From the IMG/VR virus record IMGVR_UViG_3300000553_000375, positions 1 through 21,934 of that record: 21,934 bases of DNA; one strand, written 5' to 3'. The notes under the pieces were generated by a model. That model saw only the letters and a list, made by a program, of their open reading frames with translations. It was not told where the DNA came from and ran no database searches. Every line of letters starts with the position of its first letter. Position 1 is the stretch's first letter. Shown here piece after piece: positions 1,317 through 21,294 of this stretch. Source of the stretch: a virus. The translations under genes were made by a program, and so were the position numbers.

Positions 1317-1730
1317 TCAAATCAAAGATTTTGATCTGCGAACCCTTACCATAATCCATCCATTATACCATTCATCAGGTTTGAGTAAAACATCATATTC
1401 AAATTGTAATTTTGCTTCCCAATAATTACATTCATTTTTTGTTTTACACAATCTTAGTATTTCTCTTTTAAAATTATGTTTCCCTATTTTATTAACATCT
1501 TCTATCAATTCAATAGAAGAAGAATAGTAGTCTTTCCAGTCTGATTCAATGGTTGTTTTTTTCTTTTTGCCCTTGATCTGCTTGGTTCTTCTAAACTTGA
1601 GCAGTTTCTTCCCAATATACTTTTTACCGCTGGACATATTTACGATGAGGTATACAAATCCTATGTAATTATCTAGGACTTCAGAATCAATTATATTACC
1701 ATTATGTAACCAAGGGTTCGAATATGACAT
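1317..1730 (-). CDS. SegE-like GIY-YIG endonuclease
   Basis: A 137-aa protein with a single GIY-YIG nuclease domain. The GIY-like strand FVYLIVNMSSG lies at about residues 25-35 and KYIGKK at 37-42; basic linkers follow, then a DWKDYYSSS segment, FKREIL at 87-92 and the likely catalytic Glu in YWEAKLQ (about residue 105). Its ending, YNGWIMVRVRR, is typical of the short SegE-type GIY-YIG proteins found in T4-like phages. No separate DNA-binding domain is visible. The ATG at 1730 lies in the 3' arm of a strong hairpin that also holds the RBS (see 1729-1759). Expected role: a free-standing homing or intergenic endonuclease. Family likely, activity untested. Confidence 0.78.
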   Translation of the reverse strand: MSYSNPWLHNGNIIDSEVLDNYIGFVYLIVNMSSGKKYIGKKLLKFRRTKQIKGKKKKTTIESDWKDYYSSSIELIEDVNKIGKHNFKREILRLCKTKNECNYWEAKLQFEYDVLLKPDEWYNGWIMVRVRRSKSLI

Positions 1731-2024: not shown

Positions 2025-2822
2025 TTACTCCTTACATTGCTTTTTCTTATCATCAGCAAGAGTCTTTAGATCAGTAGTAATCACAGGATTCTTAACTGTT
2101 TTGGAGTCGGGAATAGGGAAAGTCATACCAGTAAGTTTTTCAATATCTGCCACTGTCACCTGATACTGAGTGTAATCAGAACTCAAACCATCTTTGTGTG
2201 GGAACAAGAAAGCATAGGACTTCTTGGTCACGTCATCAGTTACAATTTTAAATAGGTAGTCAGGAACAACAACCTTATCAGCGCCAATAGTTTTTGTACC
2301 ACCAAAGTTACCAGCGTATTCTGTATGCGGATGCTTAGTTGAATAAACCCATGCACGTGAAGCTGATTCTAGGTTCTTCCAAGTACCACGATTAACAGAA
2401 GGAAGTTGTGGGCTCATGTTAGACATAAGGAATGACTCATGTTCAACCTGTGGATCCCAAGACATGTCAGCGTCATTAGCTAGGTGGCCTTGGTCATAGC
2501 CAGAAGCTGCATAGTCAGATGGCTTGGCCGAAGCAGGTAGCGACTGGTCAGCAGCAAATGCATTAGTACGTGCAACACAACCAATAGCATGATCAGGCGT
2601 TAAAGTCCAAGCAACCCAATCTGGAGTATGTGTGTTTGGATTAAAAGCAAGTTCATAAGCTGCACGACAAACTACAGTATCACCAGCCTTTACACTTGGC
2701 TGACCATAAGGAATCTGATTGGCGCATGACGCAACAGGATGAGGAGGAACTTGGTCAGCTGCAACAGCATAAGAAGCAGCTACTAAAAATAAACTAGAGA
2801 GAAAAATTCTTAAAACTTTCAT
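2025..2822 (-). CDS. Exported DNA/RNA non-specific endonuclease (NUC family)
   Basis: A 265-aa protein. Residues 1-21 form a classic Sec signal peptide: basic MKVLR, a hydrophobic core, and AVA|A as the likely cleavage site. The mature part carries the NUC (Serratia-nuclease-like, PF01223) active site: DQGH at 110-113 with catalytic His113, MSNMSPQ at 133-139, then NRGTWKNLE, which supplies the Mg-binding Asn144 and Glu152. The usual motif is DRGH; here Arg is replaced by Gln. Cys33, 52 and 82 and a Cys near the C-terminus suit an oxidising periplasm. The ATG sits inside the last codons of nrdB (29-base overlap) with AAGGA eight bases upstream, so it is made together with the reductase. Export is inferred from the sequence; its purpose is not known. 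Confidence 0.85.
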   Translation of the reverse strand: MKVLRIFLSSLFLVAASYAVAADQVPPHPVASCANQIPYGQPSVKAGDTVVCRAAYELAFNPNTHTPDWVAWTLTPDHAIGCVARTNAFAADQSLPASAKPSDYAASGYDQGHLANDADMSWDPQVEHESFLMSNMSPQLPSVNRGTWKNLESASRAWVYSTKHPHTEYAGNFGGTKTIGADKVVVPDYLFKIVTDDVTKKSYAFLFPHKDGLSSDYTQYQVTVADIEKLTGMTFPIPDSKTVKNPVITTDLKTLADDKKKQCKE

Positions 2823-14988: not shown

Positions 14989-15145
14989 ATTTTTGAACCG
15001 TGATCATATCGGAAGTATAAGAGTAATGATGATGTGTGTTACTAAGTCTTCTTTTCGGCACATCACCAACAAAATTCTTATAGGAAGAATTTGCTGCTAT
15101 AAACTTATCCACATTGATATAATGGTGATTATTAGCAGTTGACAT
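14984..15145 (-). CDS. Small ORF, 53 aa
   Basis: This reading frame, too short for most gene finders, exactly fills the space between two structural genes. It begins MSTANNHHYINVDKF, contains a basic KRR and a HHH cluster, and ends MITVQKL. The ATG at 15145 overlaps the stop of the 463-aa gene (TAATG), the same coupling seen elsewhere in this operon, and the codon use is like its neighbours. Not recognised. Probably real; function unknown. Confidence 0.6.
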   Translation of the reverse strand: MSTANNHHYINVDKFIAANSSYKNFVGDVPKRRLSNTHHHYSYTSDMITVQKL

Positions 15146-16536
15146 TATTCTTTAGACCCACCAATTTTTGATGAACCACCAAGGCTAATGCTACGTTTAG
15201 GGTCTTTTATAGCTTTTCCAGTATTTACAGTTTGCATAAATCTATCATGTGAATGATGTAAGCTATTTTGGATATCTTCTTTATCAGAAGGTCTTGGAGC
15301 ATTTGCCATCATTTTATTTGCTTTTGCAACATGTCTAGTGTGAACTTTATGCGTTTTGCCATCAGCAAATGTTAATGTATGGTAATCACCAACTGGACGT
15401 TTTCTAAGATCAACAGCAAATTTACCGCTACCTGCCTTTACGTCTGTTTCATCATCATCATGTTTTTTAGCTTCGTTAACATTTTCTTCTTTCATTGAAC
15501 CAAAACCAAGTTTATTCCAATGACCTTTATGAATGTGTTGAAGAACAAAATCACGAGGATCTGTATCCATGCCATGAAGGTGATGTTTTAAACCTTCAAC
15601 ATTACCATGTTCCATATGATGTGCTGCTTTTAACATATCATCCGCATCGATACCACCATGAGCATGGGCATATTTTCTTAGTCCTTCATGATTTCCAAGA
15701 TATGCTTCTGATTCATATGATTCAGCTCTTAACTTAATAGGATTTTCTTTTGCTGGTTTTTTAGGTTCATTAATTTTAACACCAGCTTCGCGTGCAGATT
15801 TTACAGCAGCCGCTTTCGCGATAGATGCTCTTGTTGCCTCAGCGATATTACCTTCACTGACCTTAATAAAATCAGCAAATGTCATATATATTTTCGATTC
15901 GGGAATAGTTGATTTTGTCATTGCTGGATTCGCCTTTTGTTTTGCTTTAGGGTCTTTTGGAGGTAATGGTGTTTTAATTGGTTTTTTTGGTGCTGGTTGT
16001 TTTGCTGCTACACCAGTTATACGAGCAGCTGCTGAATCTGAAGGATCGTCATGACCGTGTGTATTTGTTGTATTTACATCACTACGAACGTAGGCTTCAG
16101 TTTGTGCACCAATCGGTTTGTTTTTAATTTTTTCTGCTTCTTGATCACGCATTTTTTCACTATGTTTTCTAAGAGAAATTTCTTTTCTTGCAATATCGAC
16201 CTGTGATTTATCTCTGTTAATTTGCATTTTCATCTCTTTGGCAGCTCTTGCAGTAGCAGAACTTTGAGATGCTGATGAACTACTAGGAGCATTTTTTGTA
16301 CGATTAGTTTGAGGTGCACCAATGCTAATATCAGGATTTACAGGTCTGTTCTTACTACCTTTTGCGTAGTCAGTAGTACCAACGCTATCACTAATAGTAT
16401 AATCGGCAACATCATTCTTCACGCCATAACCTGTTTGATCTTGGTTTTGGCCTCTAAGTGGAGAAGAAACCACAGTAGTTTGATATTTTGGTTCAGCTTG
16501 TGATTTCTTCTCGATCAGATCATACAATTTTATCAT
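15145..16536 (-). CDS. Linker-rich probable virion protein, 463 aa
   Basis: Not assigned. It begins MIKLYDLIEKKSQAE, followed by about 200 residues of low-complexity Ser/Pro/Lys linker with a coiled-coil patch (QINRDKSQVDIARKEISL...). From about 275 there is a His-rich helical region (GNHEGLRKYAHAHGG ... AAHHMEHGNVEGLKHHLHG), then a small beta domain (TLTFADGKTHKVHTRHV). Such 'beads on linkers' proteins are common in T4-like structural clusters. ATG at 16536 overlaps the preceding stop (TAATG). Location in the head or internal core is inferred from context. Confidence 0.65.
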   Translation of the reverse strand: MIKLYDLIEKKSQAEPKYQTTVVSSPLRGQNQDQTGYGVKNDVADYTISDSVGTTDYAKGSKNRPVNPDISIGAPQTNRTKNAPSSSSASQSSATARAAKEMKMQINRDKSQVDIARKEISLRKHSEKMRDQEAEKIKNKPIGAQTEAYVRSDVNTTNTHGHDDPSDSAAARITGVAAKQPAPKKPIKTPLPPKDPKAKQKANPAMTKSTIPESKIYMTFADFIKVSEGNIAEATRASIAKAAAVKSAREAGVKINEPKKPAKENPIKLRAESYESEAYLGNHEGLRKYAHAHGGIDADDMLKAAHHMEHGNVEGLKHHLHGMDTDPRDFVLQHIHKGHWNKLGFGSMKEENVNEAKKHDDDETDVKAGSGKFAVDLRKRPVGDYHTLTFADGKTHKVHTRHVAKANKMMANAPRPSDKEDIQNSLHHSHDRFMQTVNTGKAIKDPKRSISLGGSSKIGGSKE

Positions 16537-17036
16537 TAGATACTCTTAGCAATTGCTTCGATACGAGCAAGTTCAGCTTCTGAAAATTCAACTTCTTCTT
16601 CCATTTTCTTTTTGCCACGAAGCATTTCGAAATCTTGCTTATCTAGTTTACCGTTATGGTTCTTATCAAGTTTCTTTTGCTTGCCAACAAGCTCTTCTTT
16701 CATGCCTTCTTTTTTCTTCATTTTTTCAACGCCAGCAACGAAAGCCTTTTCATCTTTTTTTTCTTTACCTGCTTTAACGCCATCAAAAGGAACGTTCTTA
16801 TCAACAGATTCACACATACATGAAGCCTTACCACATTTAGGGCATTTCATTGCTTCCTTCATGTGTTCTGCTTTTTTCATTCTATTGATTTTTGGCTTTT
16901 CGTCTTTTTCTTCTTTAGAACCAGACTCTTCGCCATCAATCGACTTGTTTGATTTTGGATTGATGATGTTTTTAACTGCTTCAAGCATGGCATCTGAAAT
17001 GCCAAATTTATTATCTGATTTAAACATGTTTGACAT
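16536..17036 (-). CDS. Basic protein with EF-hand-like loop and Cys cluster
   Basis: A 166-aa protein. It is Lys/Glu/Met-rich and mostly helical or disordered. Residues 65-75 hold CPKCGKASCMC, a possible zinc site. Residues 124-135 (DKNHNGKLDKQD) match the EF-hand/dockerin calcium loop at every key position: Asp1, Asn3, Asn5, Gly6, Leu8, Asp9 and Asp12. The following FEMLRGKKK would be the exiting helix. The C-terminus is an acidic amphipathic helix. ATG at 17036 has AAGGAT upstream. Probably a virion component like its neighbours. Confidence 0.65.
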   Translation of the reverse strand: MSNMFKSDNKFGISDAMLEAVKNIINPKSNKSIDGEESGSKEEKDEKPKINRMKKAEHMKEAMKCPKCGKASCMCESVDKNVPFDGVKAGKEKKDEKAFVAGVEKMKKKEGMKEELVGKQKKLDKNHNGKLDKQDFEMLRGKKKMEEEVEFSEAELARIEAIAKSI

Positions 17037-17039
17037 TTC

Positions 17040-18860
17040 TTAGTATCCTTCTACTTCTACTTTTTGGCCATGTGGCAATGTTTCAGGCATTTTTACAATA
17101 TATTTCTTAGAGTCGTATGGTGATTTGAACATCATGCCGCCATGTCTTGTTGCATGTTTTTCGGCTGTGTCATAATCAAATGTTCTAGTGTCGCCATTAT
17201 GAGCAAGCACTTTACCGAATACTGGATGATGCTTTACATGCCAGCCTTCGCTTTCTGTTACTCTTGCAGCAGGTTCATTTCCTGCACCTTGAATAGCATT
17301 TAATTCGCCACCGTACATTTGTTCTTTTAATTTCTTTAATGTTTTAGCAAGAATAGCTTTTCTGCGAAGTTTAGGATTTTCGCTGTGAGAAGCCTTTTCT
17401 AATTTACCTGCTGGAATTTTTTCATCAGCTGGAACATGTAATGCTCTGTGTAATGATCCAGGATGTTTAATTGCTCCAGCAATCCAATTTTTCTCATCAA
17501 GAGTTTCTTTTTTAACAGGCTTTTTCTCTTTACTTAACATTGCATGTACTTTTGCTAATTTAGCAGCATCAGAATTAGTTAAGCCATGATTAAGAACTCT
17601 AGCTTTTGGTTCAGGTACTGTTCCTTCAGATACAGTTTTGCCACTTACTTTTTTAACCATAGCCTTCATTGATTTTCTGGCAAGGTTTTTAGCAATGTTT
17701 TTTGTTTTACCAGTCATTGTACTTGCATCATCTGGTTCAAATGGTGCATCAGCATGCGAAGAACGAGAAGATGCTTTAATTGCATCATTAGTAACTTCCG
17801 AATGTCTTCCTGCCTTAGCATCTGGACCTGCAGTATCTAGTGGCCCAAACTTAGCAGCTTCATCCATATGATATTCAGCTCTTTTAACATGAGCATCAGC
17901 TACATGGTGACGACCTGCTCTTGCATGATGACCGCTCATAATATGATGGTAATTAGCCATGTGAGCATGATGACCACCGATATCACCTGCTTCATAACAT
18001 TTCATTGCTTTTTTCATATGAGAATGAGCATCAGAAGTTGATTCGAAAATAGTTTCTTCTTTCACTGGTGCGCCTTTCTGTCCAATTTCTTTGTTGGCTT
18101 TTCTGCGAGCTTTATCGCTATCCATTTTTTCTTGAGATTCATCACGGCTGCTGTCATCAGTGTGTGGCTTAAGAATTACTTCTGTCTTACCGCCTTTGAT
18201 CATTTTAGGATCATCATGGTCAGACTCAGCGCCAGTTTTTTTCTTATTTTTCTTTTCGTCAGTACCCTTACCACTGTCATCTTTACCAGTAGTTTCAACA
18301 TCACCCATAGGTATTGCAGATTCGGAAATTTTTGGCATTTTTGGCTGAAACATTTGTGGTGTATTCGACCAAACATTAGGCATAGAAGGAGCGGCTGGTG
18401 GAGTAGTTGAATTTTGATTTGCTGGTGAAGGAATATTATCAGTTGGGTTATTAAATTGTGATAAATCTTCTTCTTTAGTTACAAGATGTTTTGGAGCCTT
18501 TACAATACGTGGACCGAATTTACCATTTCCTGTATGCAAATATACATGAGTTCCGTCAACATGATGAACCTTTCCTTTATAACCAGCACCACCTTTTACA
18601 CCAAAACCTGCGTGTACCATATCGCCAATTTTAAAATTTTCATTATCAATAGGAGCATTTGGACCAATATCACCAATTACTTCATCAATAATTTTAGTAA
18701 TTATTTCACCCTGCTTTGAAATCTTTGACTTATCACTCATTGGTTCGCCATCATCTGGACGTCCAACATTTTTCACTGTACGGCGTTTTTCAGTTCCCTT
18801 CGAAATAGCCTCAGCCATTACGTTACGGATCATATGTTCGAGTGATGTAAACTTGTTCAT
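17040..18860 (-). CDS. Multidomain linker-rich probable virion protein, 606 aa
   Basis: Not assigned to a named gene. It begins MNKFTSLEHMIRNVMAEA. About residues 76-125 (FKIGDMVHAGFGVKGGAGYKG onward) look like a small SH3/KOW-type barrel. A Pro/Asn/Ser linker, an acidic/basic linker and then a remarkable His-rich helical segment follow (HHAHMANYHHIMSGHHARAG, about 295-315). Near the C-terminus VKHHPVFGKVLAHNGDTRTF and FDYDTAEKHATRHGG suggest another small beta unit. No catalytic motif is seen. It is followed four bases later by the EF-hand protein, with which it is co-transcribed. Confidence 0.65.
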   Translation of the reverse strand: MNKFTSLEHMIRNVMAEAISKGTEKRRTVKNVGRPDDGEPMSDKSKISKQGEIITKIIDEVIGDIGPNAPIDNENFKIGDMVHAGFGVKGGAGYKGKVHHVDGTHVYLHTGNGKFGPRIVKAPKHLVTKEEDLSQFNNPTDNIPSPANQNSTTPPAAPSMPNVWSNTPQMFQPKMPKISESAIPMGDVETTGKDDSGKGTDEKKNKKKTGAESDHDDPKMIKGGKTEVILKPHTDDSSRDESQEKMDSDKARRKANKEIGQKGAPVKEETIFESTSDAHSHMKKAMKCYEAGDIGGHHAHMANYHHIMSGHHARAGRHHVADAHVKRAEYHMDEAAKFGPLDTAGPDAKAGRHSEVTNDAIKASSRSSHADAPFEPDDASTMTGKTKNIAKNLARKSMKAMVKKVSGKTVSEGTVPEPKARVLNHGLTNSDAAKLAKVHAMLSKEKKPVKKETLDEKNWIAGAIKHPGSLHRALHVPADEKIPAGKLEKASHSENPKLRRKAILAKTLKKLKEQMYGGELNAIQGAGNEPAARVTESEGWHVKHHPVFGKVLAHNGDTRTFDYDTAEKHATRHGGMMFKSPYDSKKYIVKMPETLPHGQKVEVEGY

Positions 18861-18861
18861 T

Positions 18862-19302
18862 TTAGACAGCCTTCGTTATGGATCTTAACATCCAGTGATG
18901 TTTGTAGTGAGTATCGATTCTATCCTGAAGGAAATTTTGATAACCAACAGAATTATTTTTTTCAGCTAGTTTTTGTGTTTCTTTTAAAAGAACAATAACT
19001 TTTAGATTATCATCCATAAGTTTAACCATCATAGACATAGCAGGAGGAATATTAGTCTCGTCCTTGACAATAGAAAGTTCACTAAAACGAATGAAAGATC
19101 CAGGAGCATAACCGTCAGATGTTCTAATTTCTTCAGCATGTCTATCGACAGATTCGTGAAGATCTTCATACATCTTCTGAAGAAATTTGTGATGGCTATA
19201 GAAATTTGGCCCTTCAACGTTCCAGTGAAAATAATGTGTTTTTAGATAGAGAGCAAATACGCTCGCCAAACACACTTTCATTTTTTCAATTAATTCGTCC
19301 AT
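18862..19302 (-). CDS. Dps-like ferritin
   Basis: A 146-aa four-helix protein of the Dps/ferritin family. The signature HYFHWNVEGPNFYSHHKF is followed by ESVDRHAEEIRT. Expected ferroxidase ligands: His26, His38, Asp53 and Glu57 are present; the position of the usual acidic ligand four residues after His38 is Gln42. A later GSFIRFSELS fits the helix-C region. Dps proteins oxidise and store iron and may coat DNA; there is no long basic N-terminal tail here. ATG at 19302 overlaps the preceding stop (TGATG). Its presence within a virion-gene operon suggests late expression. Confidence 0.85.
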   Translation of the reverse strand: MDELIEKMKVCLASVFALYLKTHYFHWNVEGPNFYSHHKFLQKMYEDLHESVDRHAEEIRTSDGYAPGSFIRFSELSIVKDETNIPPAMSMMVKLMDDNLKVIVLLKETQKLAEKNNSVGYQNFLQDRIDTHYKHHWMLRSITKAV

Positions 19303-19541
19303 CACTTAGCTTTCTTTGGTGCTTTTGGTTTCGTAGGAGCAGAAGGTTTAGTAACAGTAGCTGCCTTCTTTGGTGCTCTTGGTTTTCTTGGCTTTTTAGG
19401 TTTCACTTCAGTTTCTTCTTTCGCTTCAACTGCCTTCTCAACTTCTTTAATAAGTTCAGCTGGTGTTTCTTTCTTATTAACCATCAACCAAATTGCGCCG
19501 CCAATAATTGAAAGGCAAATAACTCCAATAATAATATCCAT
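19302..19541 (-). CDS. Membrane-anchored Lys/Pro/Ala-rich protein
   Basis: A 79-aa protein. Residues 1-21 are a hydrophobic span (MDIIIGVICLSIIGGAIWLM), then an acidic helix (AELIKEVEKAVEAKEETE). The last 35 residues are a histone-H1-like tail of KPKKPRKPRAPKK type repeats. The second ATG (19541) is chosen because GGAG is nine bases upstream; the first (19547) is too close to it. Not recognised. The tail could bind nucleic acid; this is inference. Confidence 0.68.
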   Translation of the reverse strand: MDIIIGVICLSIIGGAIWLMVNKKETPAELIKEVEKAVEAKEETEVKPKKPRKPRAPKKAATVTKPSAPTKPKAPKKAK

Positions 19542-19543
19542 AA

Positions 19544-20173
19544 TCATTTCTCCTCATCAGTAAATTTAGACATAGAACCATTAGGTTTAACATGAAATGC
19601 AGTAAATTGCACGTTCGGGTATTCTCTTTTCATATTTAGTAGAGCACGTAAATTAGTTTTGCTATCATCATACATCACAACTTTCTTGTGATTGTATTTG
19701 TCTAGATAGTTCTTAATAATCTTAACTTTCTTATCAGCGGGTAATTCATCTCCTGGAATACTGCCAGCACGATGAACGTGGATCTTATCAATATCCATAC
19801 CTTGATTTCTAAATGTATCTAGAAATGTATCTTTGTTATCAAAATTATCACGAGCTGTATTAATAATTACTCGACTATTAGGATGTTTCTTGATGTTAGC
19901 TTGTATTCTATTAATTTTACTGATCATCGATGGAATCGGTTTTGATTCATCACGGAATTTTTGAGCATCACGAAACTCACCAAAATCATAACTATGGTTA
20001 GGAGGTAATTTATGATCGTTAAATTCAGAGTTAGAAAGACGTTGAATTACTTTACCTGCAGGATCTCTAACACCAACTTTAGCAGTAGTGTGGAAAAGCG
20101 TGTCATCAATATCAGCAACATGAAGTGTGCCTTGTGACTGCTGTTCTTCTAAATACTGCTTAAAACTTTTCAT
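19544..20173 (-). CDS. HAD-family phosphatase with capsid-targeting-like N-terminus
   Basis: A 209-aa protein. HAD motifs: I is DIDDTL (Asp21, Asp23, Thr25), II is IINTARD (Thr106), a motif III Lys lies in PADKKVKIIK, and IV is VVMYDD (Asp169/170). The layout resembles the phosphatase half of phage polynucleotide kinases, but no kinase P-loop is present. Residues 1-10 (MKSFKQYLEE) resemble the T4 capsid targeting sequence MKTYQEFIAE, including the (L/I)xE gp21 cleavage pattern at 8-10. ATG at 20173 overlaps the preceding stop (ATGA). The substrate is unknown. Confidence 0.82.
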   Translation of the reverse strand: MKSFKQYLEEQQSQGTLHVADIDDTLFHTTAKVGVRDPAGKVIQRLSNSEFNDHKLPPNHSYDFGEFRDAQKFRDESKPIPSMISKINRIQANIKKHPNSRVIINTARDNFDNKDTFLDTFRNQGMDIDKIHVHRAGSIPGDELPADKKVKIIKNYLDKYNHKKVVMYDDSKTNLRALLNMKREYPNVQFTAFHVKPNGSMSKFTDEEK

Positions 20174-20325
20174 TTACCACCGCCACCAGAACTTCCGCTT
20201 TTACCTGGATCTTTCATTTCTATTTTGCCATTTGCCATACGAATAGCAACTTTGCCGATATGATGAATTTTACCAGCAGCATCACGGACGTTTAATTCTT
20301 TGATAAAATCTTTAAATCTTTTCAT
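20170..20325 (-). CDS. Small basic protein, 51 aa, with capsid-targeting-like N-terminus
   Basis: A short ORF that exactly bridges its neighbours: ATG at 20325 overlaps the upstream stop (TGATG) and its TGA overlaps the next ATG (ATGA). It begins MKRFKDFIKELNVRDAAGK, continues with a small beta-like region (HHIGKVAIRMANGKIEM) and ends in Gly/Ser/Lys. The first ten residues match the pattern of T4 internal-protein leaders, with IKE at 8-10. Not recognised otherwise. Confidence 0.65.
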   Translation of the reverse strand: MKRFKDFIKELNVRDAAGKIHHIGKVAIRMANGKIEMKDPGKSGSSGGGGK

Positions 20326-21227
20326 CAGCAGTTCCACTTTCTTAAAGCTAATGCCTTACGAGTTGGTCTGCCATGTTCATCTCTCATTGGTCCTTCTACG
20401 CCACCCATACGAGCGCAGAAAGATTTACGACGGTTAGCAGCCTTACTGCCTTTTTTTAATTTAGAAGGAGGAGTAGTAACTGGTGCTTTAAGATGACCGC
20501 CACTTTCTCTATTGTAATGATCACGACCTTTTTGCGTCAATCCACCAGTAGGATTTTTATATCCTTTTGCATCTTCATCAACATGTTTACCACAAGTGCA
20601 ATTGCCATTACATTCATACAATTCAGCTGCTTCTTTTACAACTTTTTTAATTGTTTTAATTGTTTGTCCTGGAGTAAATTCTTTATATACTTTTACTAAT
20701 TCATCAGTAGATTCGAATCTAGATGATGGTTTTCTAAAATCATGTGACACTTTTTCAGCGCCAGTATATGCTTCATTTTTTGGTGTTTTACCAGCTTTTT
20801 TCATAGCAATTGCAATTGCAGCTTGTTGTGCTGGATTTGCAGCTTCTGTTTGAGATGCTTTTAATGCTTTTGGTGTTGGTGCGCCTTTTTCTCCAGGCTT
20901 ACGCATATGCTCACCAGAACCGTGTTTAATGCGTTCACGCTTGGCATGAATATTATCCCAAAGACCACGTTTTTCTACTAAATCGTTATCCATATACATC
21001 GCCTTTCCACCTGCGATAAATGAGTTGACTCTATTAAACGCCTCTTGTTCGTTTAATGATACGGCATAACCTCTTTTGAACACTTCAAGGATTGTGTCAA
21101 AAGGAATACCACTATTTTCTGATTTTTTATAGAGGGAGAGAATTTGTTTGTGTGAAGGAGCTACGACAACCCCTTGTTGCTCTTCGAAAACTAGCTGAGG
21201 ACTAGGATGGAGACTTTTGTTCGACAT
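20325..21227 (-). CDS. DUF6321-like phage protein
   Basis: A 300-aa protein. The N-terminal third (PSPQLVFEEQQGVVVAPSHK ... IPFDTILEVFKRGYAVS) and the middle GLWDNIHAKRERIKHGSGE / MRKPGEKGAPT block are conserved in many T4-like phage virion proteins. After a linker and a CNGNCTCGKH Cys patch, the C-terminus (about 225-300) matches DUF6321: YKNPTGGLTQKGRDHYNR, then SKAANRRKSFCARMGG and ending RKALALRKWNC. The start is ATG at 21227; a TTG 24 bases upstream is in frame but less likely. Function unknown; probably a structural or packaged protein. Confidence 0.75.
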   Translation of the reverse strand: MSNKSLHPSPQLVFEEQQGVVVAPSHKQILSLYKKSENSGIPFDTILEVFKRGYAVSLNEQEAFNRVNSFIAGGKAMYMDNDLVEKRGLWDNIHAKRERIKHGSGEHMRKPGEKGAPTPKALKASQTEAANPAQQAAIAIAMKKAGKTPKNEAYTGAEKVSHDFRKPSSRFESTDELVKVYKEFTPGQTIKTIKKVVKEAAELYECNGNCTCGKHVDEDAKGYKNPTGGLTQKGRDHYNRESGGHLKAPVTTPPSKLKKGSKAANRRKSFCARMGGVEGPMRDEHGRPTRKALALRKWNC

Positions 21228-21286
21228 TGGTGATTCCCATGGGTGTACCAAACAACTGAAGGATTGCCGTAGCTTTCTTCACGGTC

Positions 21287-21294
21287 TATTTATA
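21287..21294 (-). promoter_or_regulatory. T4-type late promoter
   Basis: Exact TATAAATA on the minus strand, about 60 bases before the DUF6321-like gene and just downstream of the stop of the previous structural gene. It probably drives the whole overlapping late operon that follows. Confidence 0.72.

Follow-up and report, generated by a model that had tools for sequence, protein, structure and literature searches.

The window analysed here is the whole 21.9-kb stretch of the IMG/VR viral record IMGVR_UViG_3300000553_000375 (positions 1-21,934), a fragment that carries no gp21 gene of its own and from which the head genes are absent. On its minus strand lies an operon that precedes gp61, thyX, nrdA and nrdB; the features of the operon and of its surroundings are as follows.

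21287..21294, minus strand: TATAAATA, an octamer resembling T4-type late promoters, upstream of the operon, some 60 bases ahead of the probable start codon (ATG) of the 308-aa gene
20325..21251, minus strand: 308-aa protein with a C-terminal DUF6321 module (E 6.5e-26), the first gene of the operon, with its likely ATG start at 21227
20631..20651, minus strand: IKKVVKE, an internal leader-like linker directly before the DUF6321 module (pattern at residue 201 of the 308-aa protein)
20170..20325, minus strand: 51-aa protein with leader MKRFKDFIKE and a Ser/Gly-rich tail (PGKSGSSGGGG); its open reading frame opens at a GTG four codons upstream of the leader Met
20296..20325, minus strand: capsid-targeting-like leader of the 51-aa protein, residues 1-10 (F4, F7, I8, E10)
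19544..20173, minus strand: HAD-fold phosphatase of 209 aa with leader MKSFKQYLEE (ORF call)
20144..20173, minus strand: leader of the HAD protein, residues 1-10, with a predicted cut after E10 (F4, Y7, L8 and E10 being the T4 determinants)
19302..19547, minus strand: 81-aa basic Lys/Pro-rich protein with an N-terminal membrane-like segment and no leader, coupled to the HAD gene
18862..19305, minus strand: Dps-like protein without leader, in the same operon as the HAD gene (phrog_3636, E 1e-29; NCBIfam Dps models match below their cut-offs)
17040..18860, minus strand: 606-aa protein with a longer leader-like start (IRNVMAE at 11-17), a weak case
16536..17036, minus strand: 166-aa protein of the HAD operon, no leader (ORF call)
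15145..16536, minus strand: 463-aa protein with a degenerate leader here (MIKLYDLIEK) and a full leader in orthologues, as judged from the N-termini of relatives

The first three genes are translationally coupled, the 308-aa and 51-aa genes overlapping in TGATG and the 51-aa and HAD genes in AAATGA. The octamer TATAAATA occurs six times in the window against 2.9 expected, a count that is not significant, so only its placement is suggestive. We regard the extended leader of the 606-aa protein as a weak case because its Glu is not conserved in relatives. In the relatives surveyed over their whole genomes, the cargo operon again includes the Dps-like protein without a leader; a leader match was seen in one of 43 members of its family, which is probably chance, and we do not count the family as tagged.

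Amber-suppressor work on the T4 capsid-targeting sequence (CTS) has assigned residues 4 and 7 to targeting and residues 8 and 10 to processing by the gp21 protease, whose cleavage site is L/I-x-E (PMC9026906). A preliminary description of the window, made from the sequence alone, had claimed that two adjacent genes carry T4-like leaders that include the hydrophobic-x-Glu pattern of the gp21 site at positions 8-10. Both open reading frames are real, and both leaders align without gaps to T4 MKTYQEFIAE, matching all four T4 determinants: an aromatic residue at positions 4 and 7 (F4/Y7 in the HAD protein, F4/F7 in the 51-aa protein), kept across relatives, and L/I-x-E, present as LEE and IKE respectively. 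Applied to T4 as a positive control, the same rule picks out the annotated gp24, Alt, IPII and IPIII, all known gp21-processed head proteins, plus gp61.1. The last of these (L024:18966-19130, minus strand), a 54-aa product annotated as hypothetical, starts MKTFKEFIKE and is itself a candidate internal head protein of T4. At internal Met or ATG codons the motif occurs at a rate of 0.12-0.31%, from which about 0.04-0.12 motif-bearing genes are expected among the 32-40 genes of the window; the probability of two or more is 0.0007-0.007.

The leader was then sought in relatives from IMG/VR, gathered with the HAD protein (9), the 51-aa protein (36) and the 308-aa protein (the best 80 of 165). Among 901 non-redundant genes at 141 loci, 78 carry the motif at the N-terminus, whereas it follows only 3 of 2573 internal ATGs, and motifs with permuted positions mark 2.1 genes on average in the same set. 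As most loci were reached through leader-bearing queries, the raw gene count is inflated and a count of sequence families is fairer; after clustering with low-complexity masking and mutual coverage, the leader marks 22 of 560 families against a permuted-motif mean of 1.5. The highest permuted motif marks 17 families, the next 8; we take the former to be a swap of positions 4 and 7, and hence a nearly identical motif. That two short N-termini are alike by chance, or share a start through gene duplication, is thus scarcely credible and was rejected on the permuted motifs, the internal-ATG controls and the family clustering: although the motif fixes just four positions, with relaxed residue classes, both the probability for the window and the family count speak against it, as does the fact that the bodies are unrelated and that the pattern is kept while the letters of homologues vary.

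The consensus in relatives, M-K-[ST]-F-K-[QDE]-[FY]-[LI]-x-E, may be set beside M-K-T-Y-Q-E-F-I-A-E of T4, and the leader is found on unrelated proteins at many of these loci, often at the same locus. It is present in 27 of 31 members of the DUF6267 family and, by the strict rule, in 10 of 16 stand-alone 51-aa proteins. Homologues of the HAD protein were found at 36 loci; the strict rule recognises the leader in 15 of 26 HAD members, and with shifts allowed the count among distinct N-termini rises to roughly 19 of 26, the exact letters varying. The orthologues in L003/L004, L104, L065 and L069 have K, D or a non-acidic residue at position 10. A further tagged family is an HD-domain protein resembling ppGpp hydrolases (L010; family assigned from the L009 relative). 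The 463-aa protein of the window had been put forward as a weaker case, and this judgement stands: its own start is degenerate, and those of its orthologues are full leaders (MKNFRNWLEE, MLTFRGWFTE, MKSFSDWVFE, MKTFSSWLKE and MKSFIGWLNE).

A T4-type leader would call for a gp21-type prohead protease with L/I-x-E specificity. A T4-type prohead protease (Pfam S77) is encoded in 8 of the 21 records of relatives, a set that includes many fragments; gp23 was found in 4 of 6. Two relatives of near-genome size (164 and 168 kb) encode both the S77 protease and gp23, and their thyX, nrdA and nrdB are 67-89% identical to those of the window. The N-terminal regions of the relatives' gp23 show a recurring L-x-E (TLSE, TLNE, TLTE) ahead of an A/T-rich stretch, a suggestive fit, at the level of sequence, between the cleavage specificity of the protease and the L/I-x-E of the leader.

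Independent evidence comes from virion proteomics of cultured cyanophages. A tblastn search with the HAD protein against annotated phages gave no match, so cultured relatives were reached via DUF6267 and the NMNAT-like proteins; single-protein scans with DUF6267 or the S-CREM2 NMNAT gained little. For the T4-like cyanophage S-CREM2 a virion proteome has been published, in which 52 of 219 coding sequences were detected (PMC10665884). The strict leader rule marks six of the 219, and five of these six are in the published virion list (Fisher p = 0.003); the enrichment is stronger when recognised structural proteins are set aside (p = 0.0002) and weaker under a looser rule (p = 0.02). The five tagged virion proteins of S-CREM2 start as follows.

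SAM hydrolase: MKDFDSFLEE
gp13: MKDLHSFLTE
APH-like kinase: MKRFDAFLTE
gp136: MQTFSMFFSE
cytidylyltransferase (NMNAT-like): MKNFSSFLTE

The authors of that proteome left the presence of the SAM hydrolase, the kinase and the NMNAT-like enzyme in virions unexplained and deemed contamination possible (PMC10665884). A fourth non-structural virion enzyme (two endolysins aside), annotated as Cas9-like, carries RFASFMAE about 17 residues further in, and the same displacement is seen in its relatives in S-CRM01, S-H34 and S-N03. In this Cas9-annotated virion family of cluster C cyanophages (L023:7704-10313, minus strand, L041, L042 and L043) a conserved start precedes the displaced leader. In other cyanophages, the virion NMNATs of S-SCSM1 and S-SZBM1 start MKSFLQFLKE and MRFRQFIIE respectively, and the S-CRM01 kinase, detected in virions (PMC10665884), starts MISFDQFLSE. 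S-SZBM1 served as a second blind test: one of its three leader proteins is among the only 30 proteins detected, which is no significant enrichment (p = 0.36). Its DUF6267-like protein _141, recognised by an HLEHLED start, has no leader and is absent from the virion list. Published virion lists of this kind may include co-purifying proteins. As a separate observation, the product of G013:C1:165568-166296 in one relative, with leader MQSFTEYLTE, resembles by eye S-CREM2 gp156 (OR473000, 126012-126725), a virion protein whose start, LISE, is shorter.

These data also bear on whether the leader might send its proteins to some other late complex (the scaffold only, the tail, a membrane or host RNA polymerase), where they would be degraded or left behind without injection. 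T4 scaffold proteins are processed by gp21 as well and for the most part do not stay in the head (PMC9026906), and the small leader proteins _191 and _192 of S-SZBM1 were not among the proteins detected in its virions. However, the leader-bearing enzymes of S-CREM2 are found in purified virions, and most tagged proteins are enzymes rather than acidic scaffold. We therefore consider this alternative improbable.

Much of the tagged cargo in the cyanophages and relatives compared maps to the interval from the helicase gp41/mazG genes to gp61/nrdA, and the operon of the window has these same surroundings. In the corresponding interval of S-SCSM1, seven of 18 complete genes are annotated as virion proteins. 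The cytidylyltransferase of S-CREM2 lies upstream of the primase gene and nrdA, and its SAM hydrolase and kinase lie elsewhere.

Taken together, gp21 and gp23 in relatives, the many tagged families and the tagged enzymes in cyanophage virions support the capsid-targeting reading offered in the preliminary description, according to which a phosphatase and a small basic protein would be packed in the head and injected. The linkers between modules, the partner with an RNA-ligase-like fold and the spread of the leader over further phages go beyond that description. We conclude that the leader is very probably a T4-type CTS. The best overall explanation, which we hold to be likely, is that both leaders are working T4-type targeting sequences whose cargo is packed, cut and injected; for this phage we infer packaging, cleavage and injection, and likewise the repair role considered below. 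Late in infection, the coupled operon would make the phosphatase and the 51-aa protein, and the aromatic side chains of residues 4 and 7 would bind the core of the prohead scaffold. A T4-type gp21 would then cut after E10, leaving the mature proteins loose in the head, from where they would enter the next host along with the DNA. The leader would thus act as a portable address tag, fused in related phages to many unrelated proteins.

The same element may also operate within proteins. In other phages the body of the 51-aa protein is fused behind larger proteins via TPGQSTKTIKRVVKE-IAIRDAAG or KAQTVKRVVKE-LNVRDAAG, and the stand-alone form reads MKRFKDFIKE-LNVRDAAG, the leader aligning without gaps to the linker (IKRVVKE) and being followed by the same residues after the Glu. 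Tag and linker look interchangeable because the linker of the fused 51-aa body aligns with the leader of the free one. The linker of the window, IKKVVKE, is homologous to linkers that precede other modules in relatives. The DUF6321 module, for its part, occurs elsewhere as a separate gene, starting MTVSFRQYIAE at L002 and MIRFKDFIAE at L049, and L057 encodes a fusion of the 51-aa body with the HAD protein. Such switching of modules from tagged gene to linked domain and back agrees with a cut at their junction; the linkers are probably internal gp21-type cut sites, a reading of the alignments in which cleavage is the predicted step. Our tentative proposal is that tag and internal linker are one exchangeable element, by which modules of a packaged end-repair kit move between stand-alone and polyprotein form.

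If the leader delivers proteins with the DNA, what might the cargo do? The HAD protein received no usable name from standard annotation libraries; it has a weak PHROG match to polynucleotide kinase, and its catalytic motifs DIDDT, INTAR, K149 and YDDS are conserved. Its structural model (pLDDT 77.7) matches the 3'-phosphatase of T4 Pnkp with Z 10.1 over 133 residues, a score tied with those of capsule-synthesis, lipin/Nir2, acid and other HAD phosphatases. DUF6267 genes accompany the HAD gene at 24 of the 36 HAD loci, mostly within 2-3 kb. The family keeps K-Y/F-D-G (KxDG) and E-G-x-V (EGxV), and in fold comparison its top 50 structural matches are without exception ligases of RNA or DNA, the best with Z 9.7; Foldseek alone gave no E-value below 0.001, and sequence-profile searches of solved structures found no true relative for either the HAD protein or DUF6267. 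On this structural modelling, the fold of DUF6267 appears to be RNA-ligase-like. The AlphaFold model has a pLDDT of 86 overall and below 50 over the first 18 residues, as expected for a loose appended tag. A single leader-bearing protein of 677-705 aa combines DUF6267 with an NMNAT-like domain in the nearest relatives (G012:C1:17552-19585 and G013:C1:134819-136936).

The predicted ligase fold of DUF6267, the Pnkp-like HAD protein and their shared loci lead us to propose an end-repair kit. The tagged cargo near the operon would include the RNA-ligase-fold DUF6267, which often has an NMNAT-like nucleotidyltransferase fused to it or next to it, and the Pnkp-like phosphatase. Part of this cargo could be at work within minutes of the start of infection, mending ends such as those of tRNA or DNA broken by host defences. 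The main competitor to this part of the argument accepts a true CTS and has the HAD, DUF6267 and NMNAT-like proteins act early on NAD, nucleotides or other small molecules. The tie of the HAD model with lipin-type, acid and other phosphatases fits such a role, as does the lack of any match at the level of sequence between DUF6267 and structurally solved ligases, and papers on cyanophages propose NAD synthesis for the NMNAT. Against it stand the DUF6267 fold comparison, whose rows are RNA and DNA ligases throughout, the conserved K-Y/F-D-G and E-G-x-V of that family, and the place of the Pnkp 3'-phosphatase among the top matches of the HAD model. We give the small-molecule role a little under an even chance. 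Nucleic-acid end repair, as we infer it for the cargo, is a serious candidate of which we are less than confident, and the fuller proposal, in which a head-carried kit (DUF6267, often NMNAT-fused, plus the Pnkp-like phosphatase) with exchangeable tag and linker would seal breaks left by anticodon nucleases or other defences of the host before phage expression, is more speculative.

The principle of a head-addressing leader is known, and a review suggests that varied proteins may be recruited in this way in T4-like phages (PMC9026906). The leaders described here share with the CTS of T4 IPII and IPIII the ten-residue length, the aromatics at 4 and 7, L/I-x-E at 8-10, unrelated bodies, and gp21 and gp23 in relatives; unlike the T4 case, they sit on enzymes and on Ser/Gly-tailed small proteins of aquatic T4-like phages, their form is shared with internal linkers, and they are located close to gp61 and the nrd genes. 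T4 Alt is a head-packaged enzyme injected with the DNA, and its start, MELITELFDE, fits the same rule, but Alt is an ADP-ribosyltransferase and none was seen here. The T4 Pnkp/Rnl1 repair system resembles our cargo in that folds like a HAD 3'-phosphatase and an RNA ligase are encoded near each other; the T4 enzymes, however, are made after infection, whereas here there are head-targeting leaders and the HAD protein shows no kinase domain. In phiKZ and SPN3US many different head-packed proteins, ejection proteins among them, are likewise cut after Glu by gp21-related proteases (gp175 and gp245), but these are giant phages and the phiKZ sites are S/A-x-E (PMC9026906), in contrast to the L/I-x-E and defined ten-residue leader found here. 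The virion NMNAT, kinase and SAM hydrolase of S-CREM2, S-SCSM1, S-SZBM1 and S-CRM01 have the same leader and are reported in virions; in the literature we searched, however, the leader has gone unrecognised, and no paper links it to cyanophage virion enzymes or to the families described here. What is new is thus the breadth of the leader, its fit to proteomics, the leader-linker exchange and, possibly, a packaged repair kit. If correct, this would give a sequence rule predicting DNA-delivered proteins in abundant aquatic phages, whose virion enzymes had been noted and left unexplained, would rank hypothetical proteins as first-minute effectors and counter-defences, and would suggest that virions can bring along an RNA-repair system made in advance.

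Several other features of the window merit mention. The nrdA gene (8109-4256, minus strand) looks interrupted by an intein or split intein: a 538-aa open reading frame ends in CVSGETYVTVELLDGS..., an intein-like C-terminal block, FYANGILVHNC, occurs at 6211-5912, and a GIY-YIG-like open reading frame precedes the C-terminal part of nrdA. A second GIY-YIG-like open reading frame, at 1317-1730 (minus strand), is possibly a homing endonuclease, and 2025-2822 (minus strand) encodes a protein resembling DNA/RNA non-specific endonucleases, with a signal-peptide-like start.
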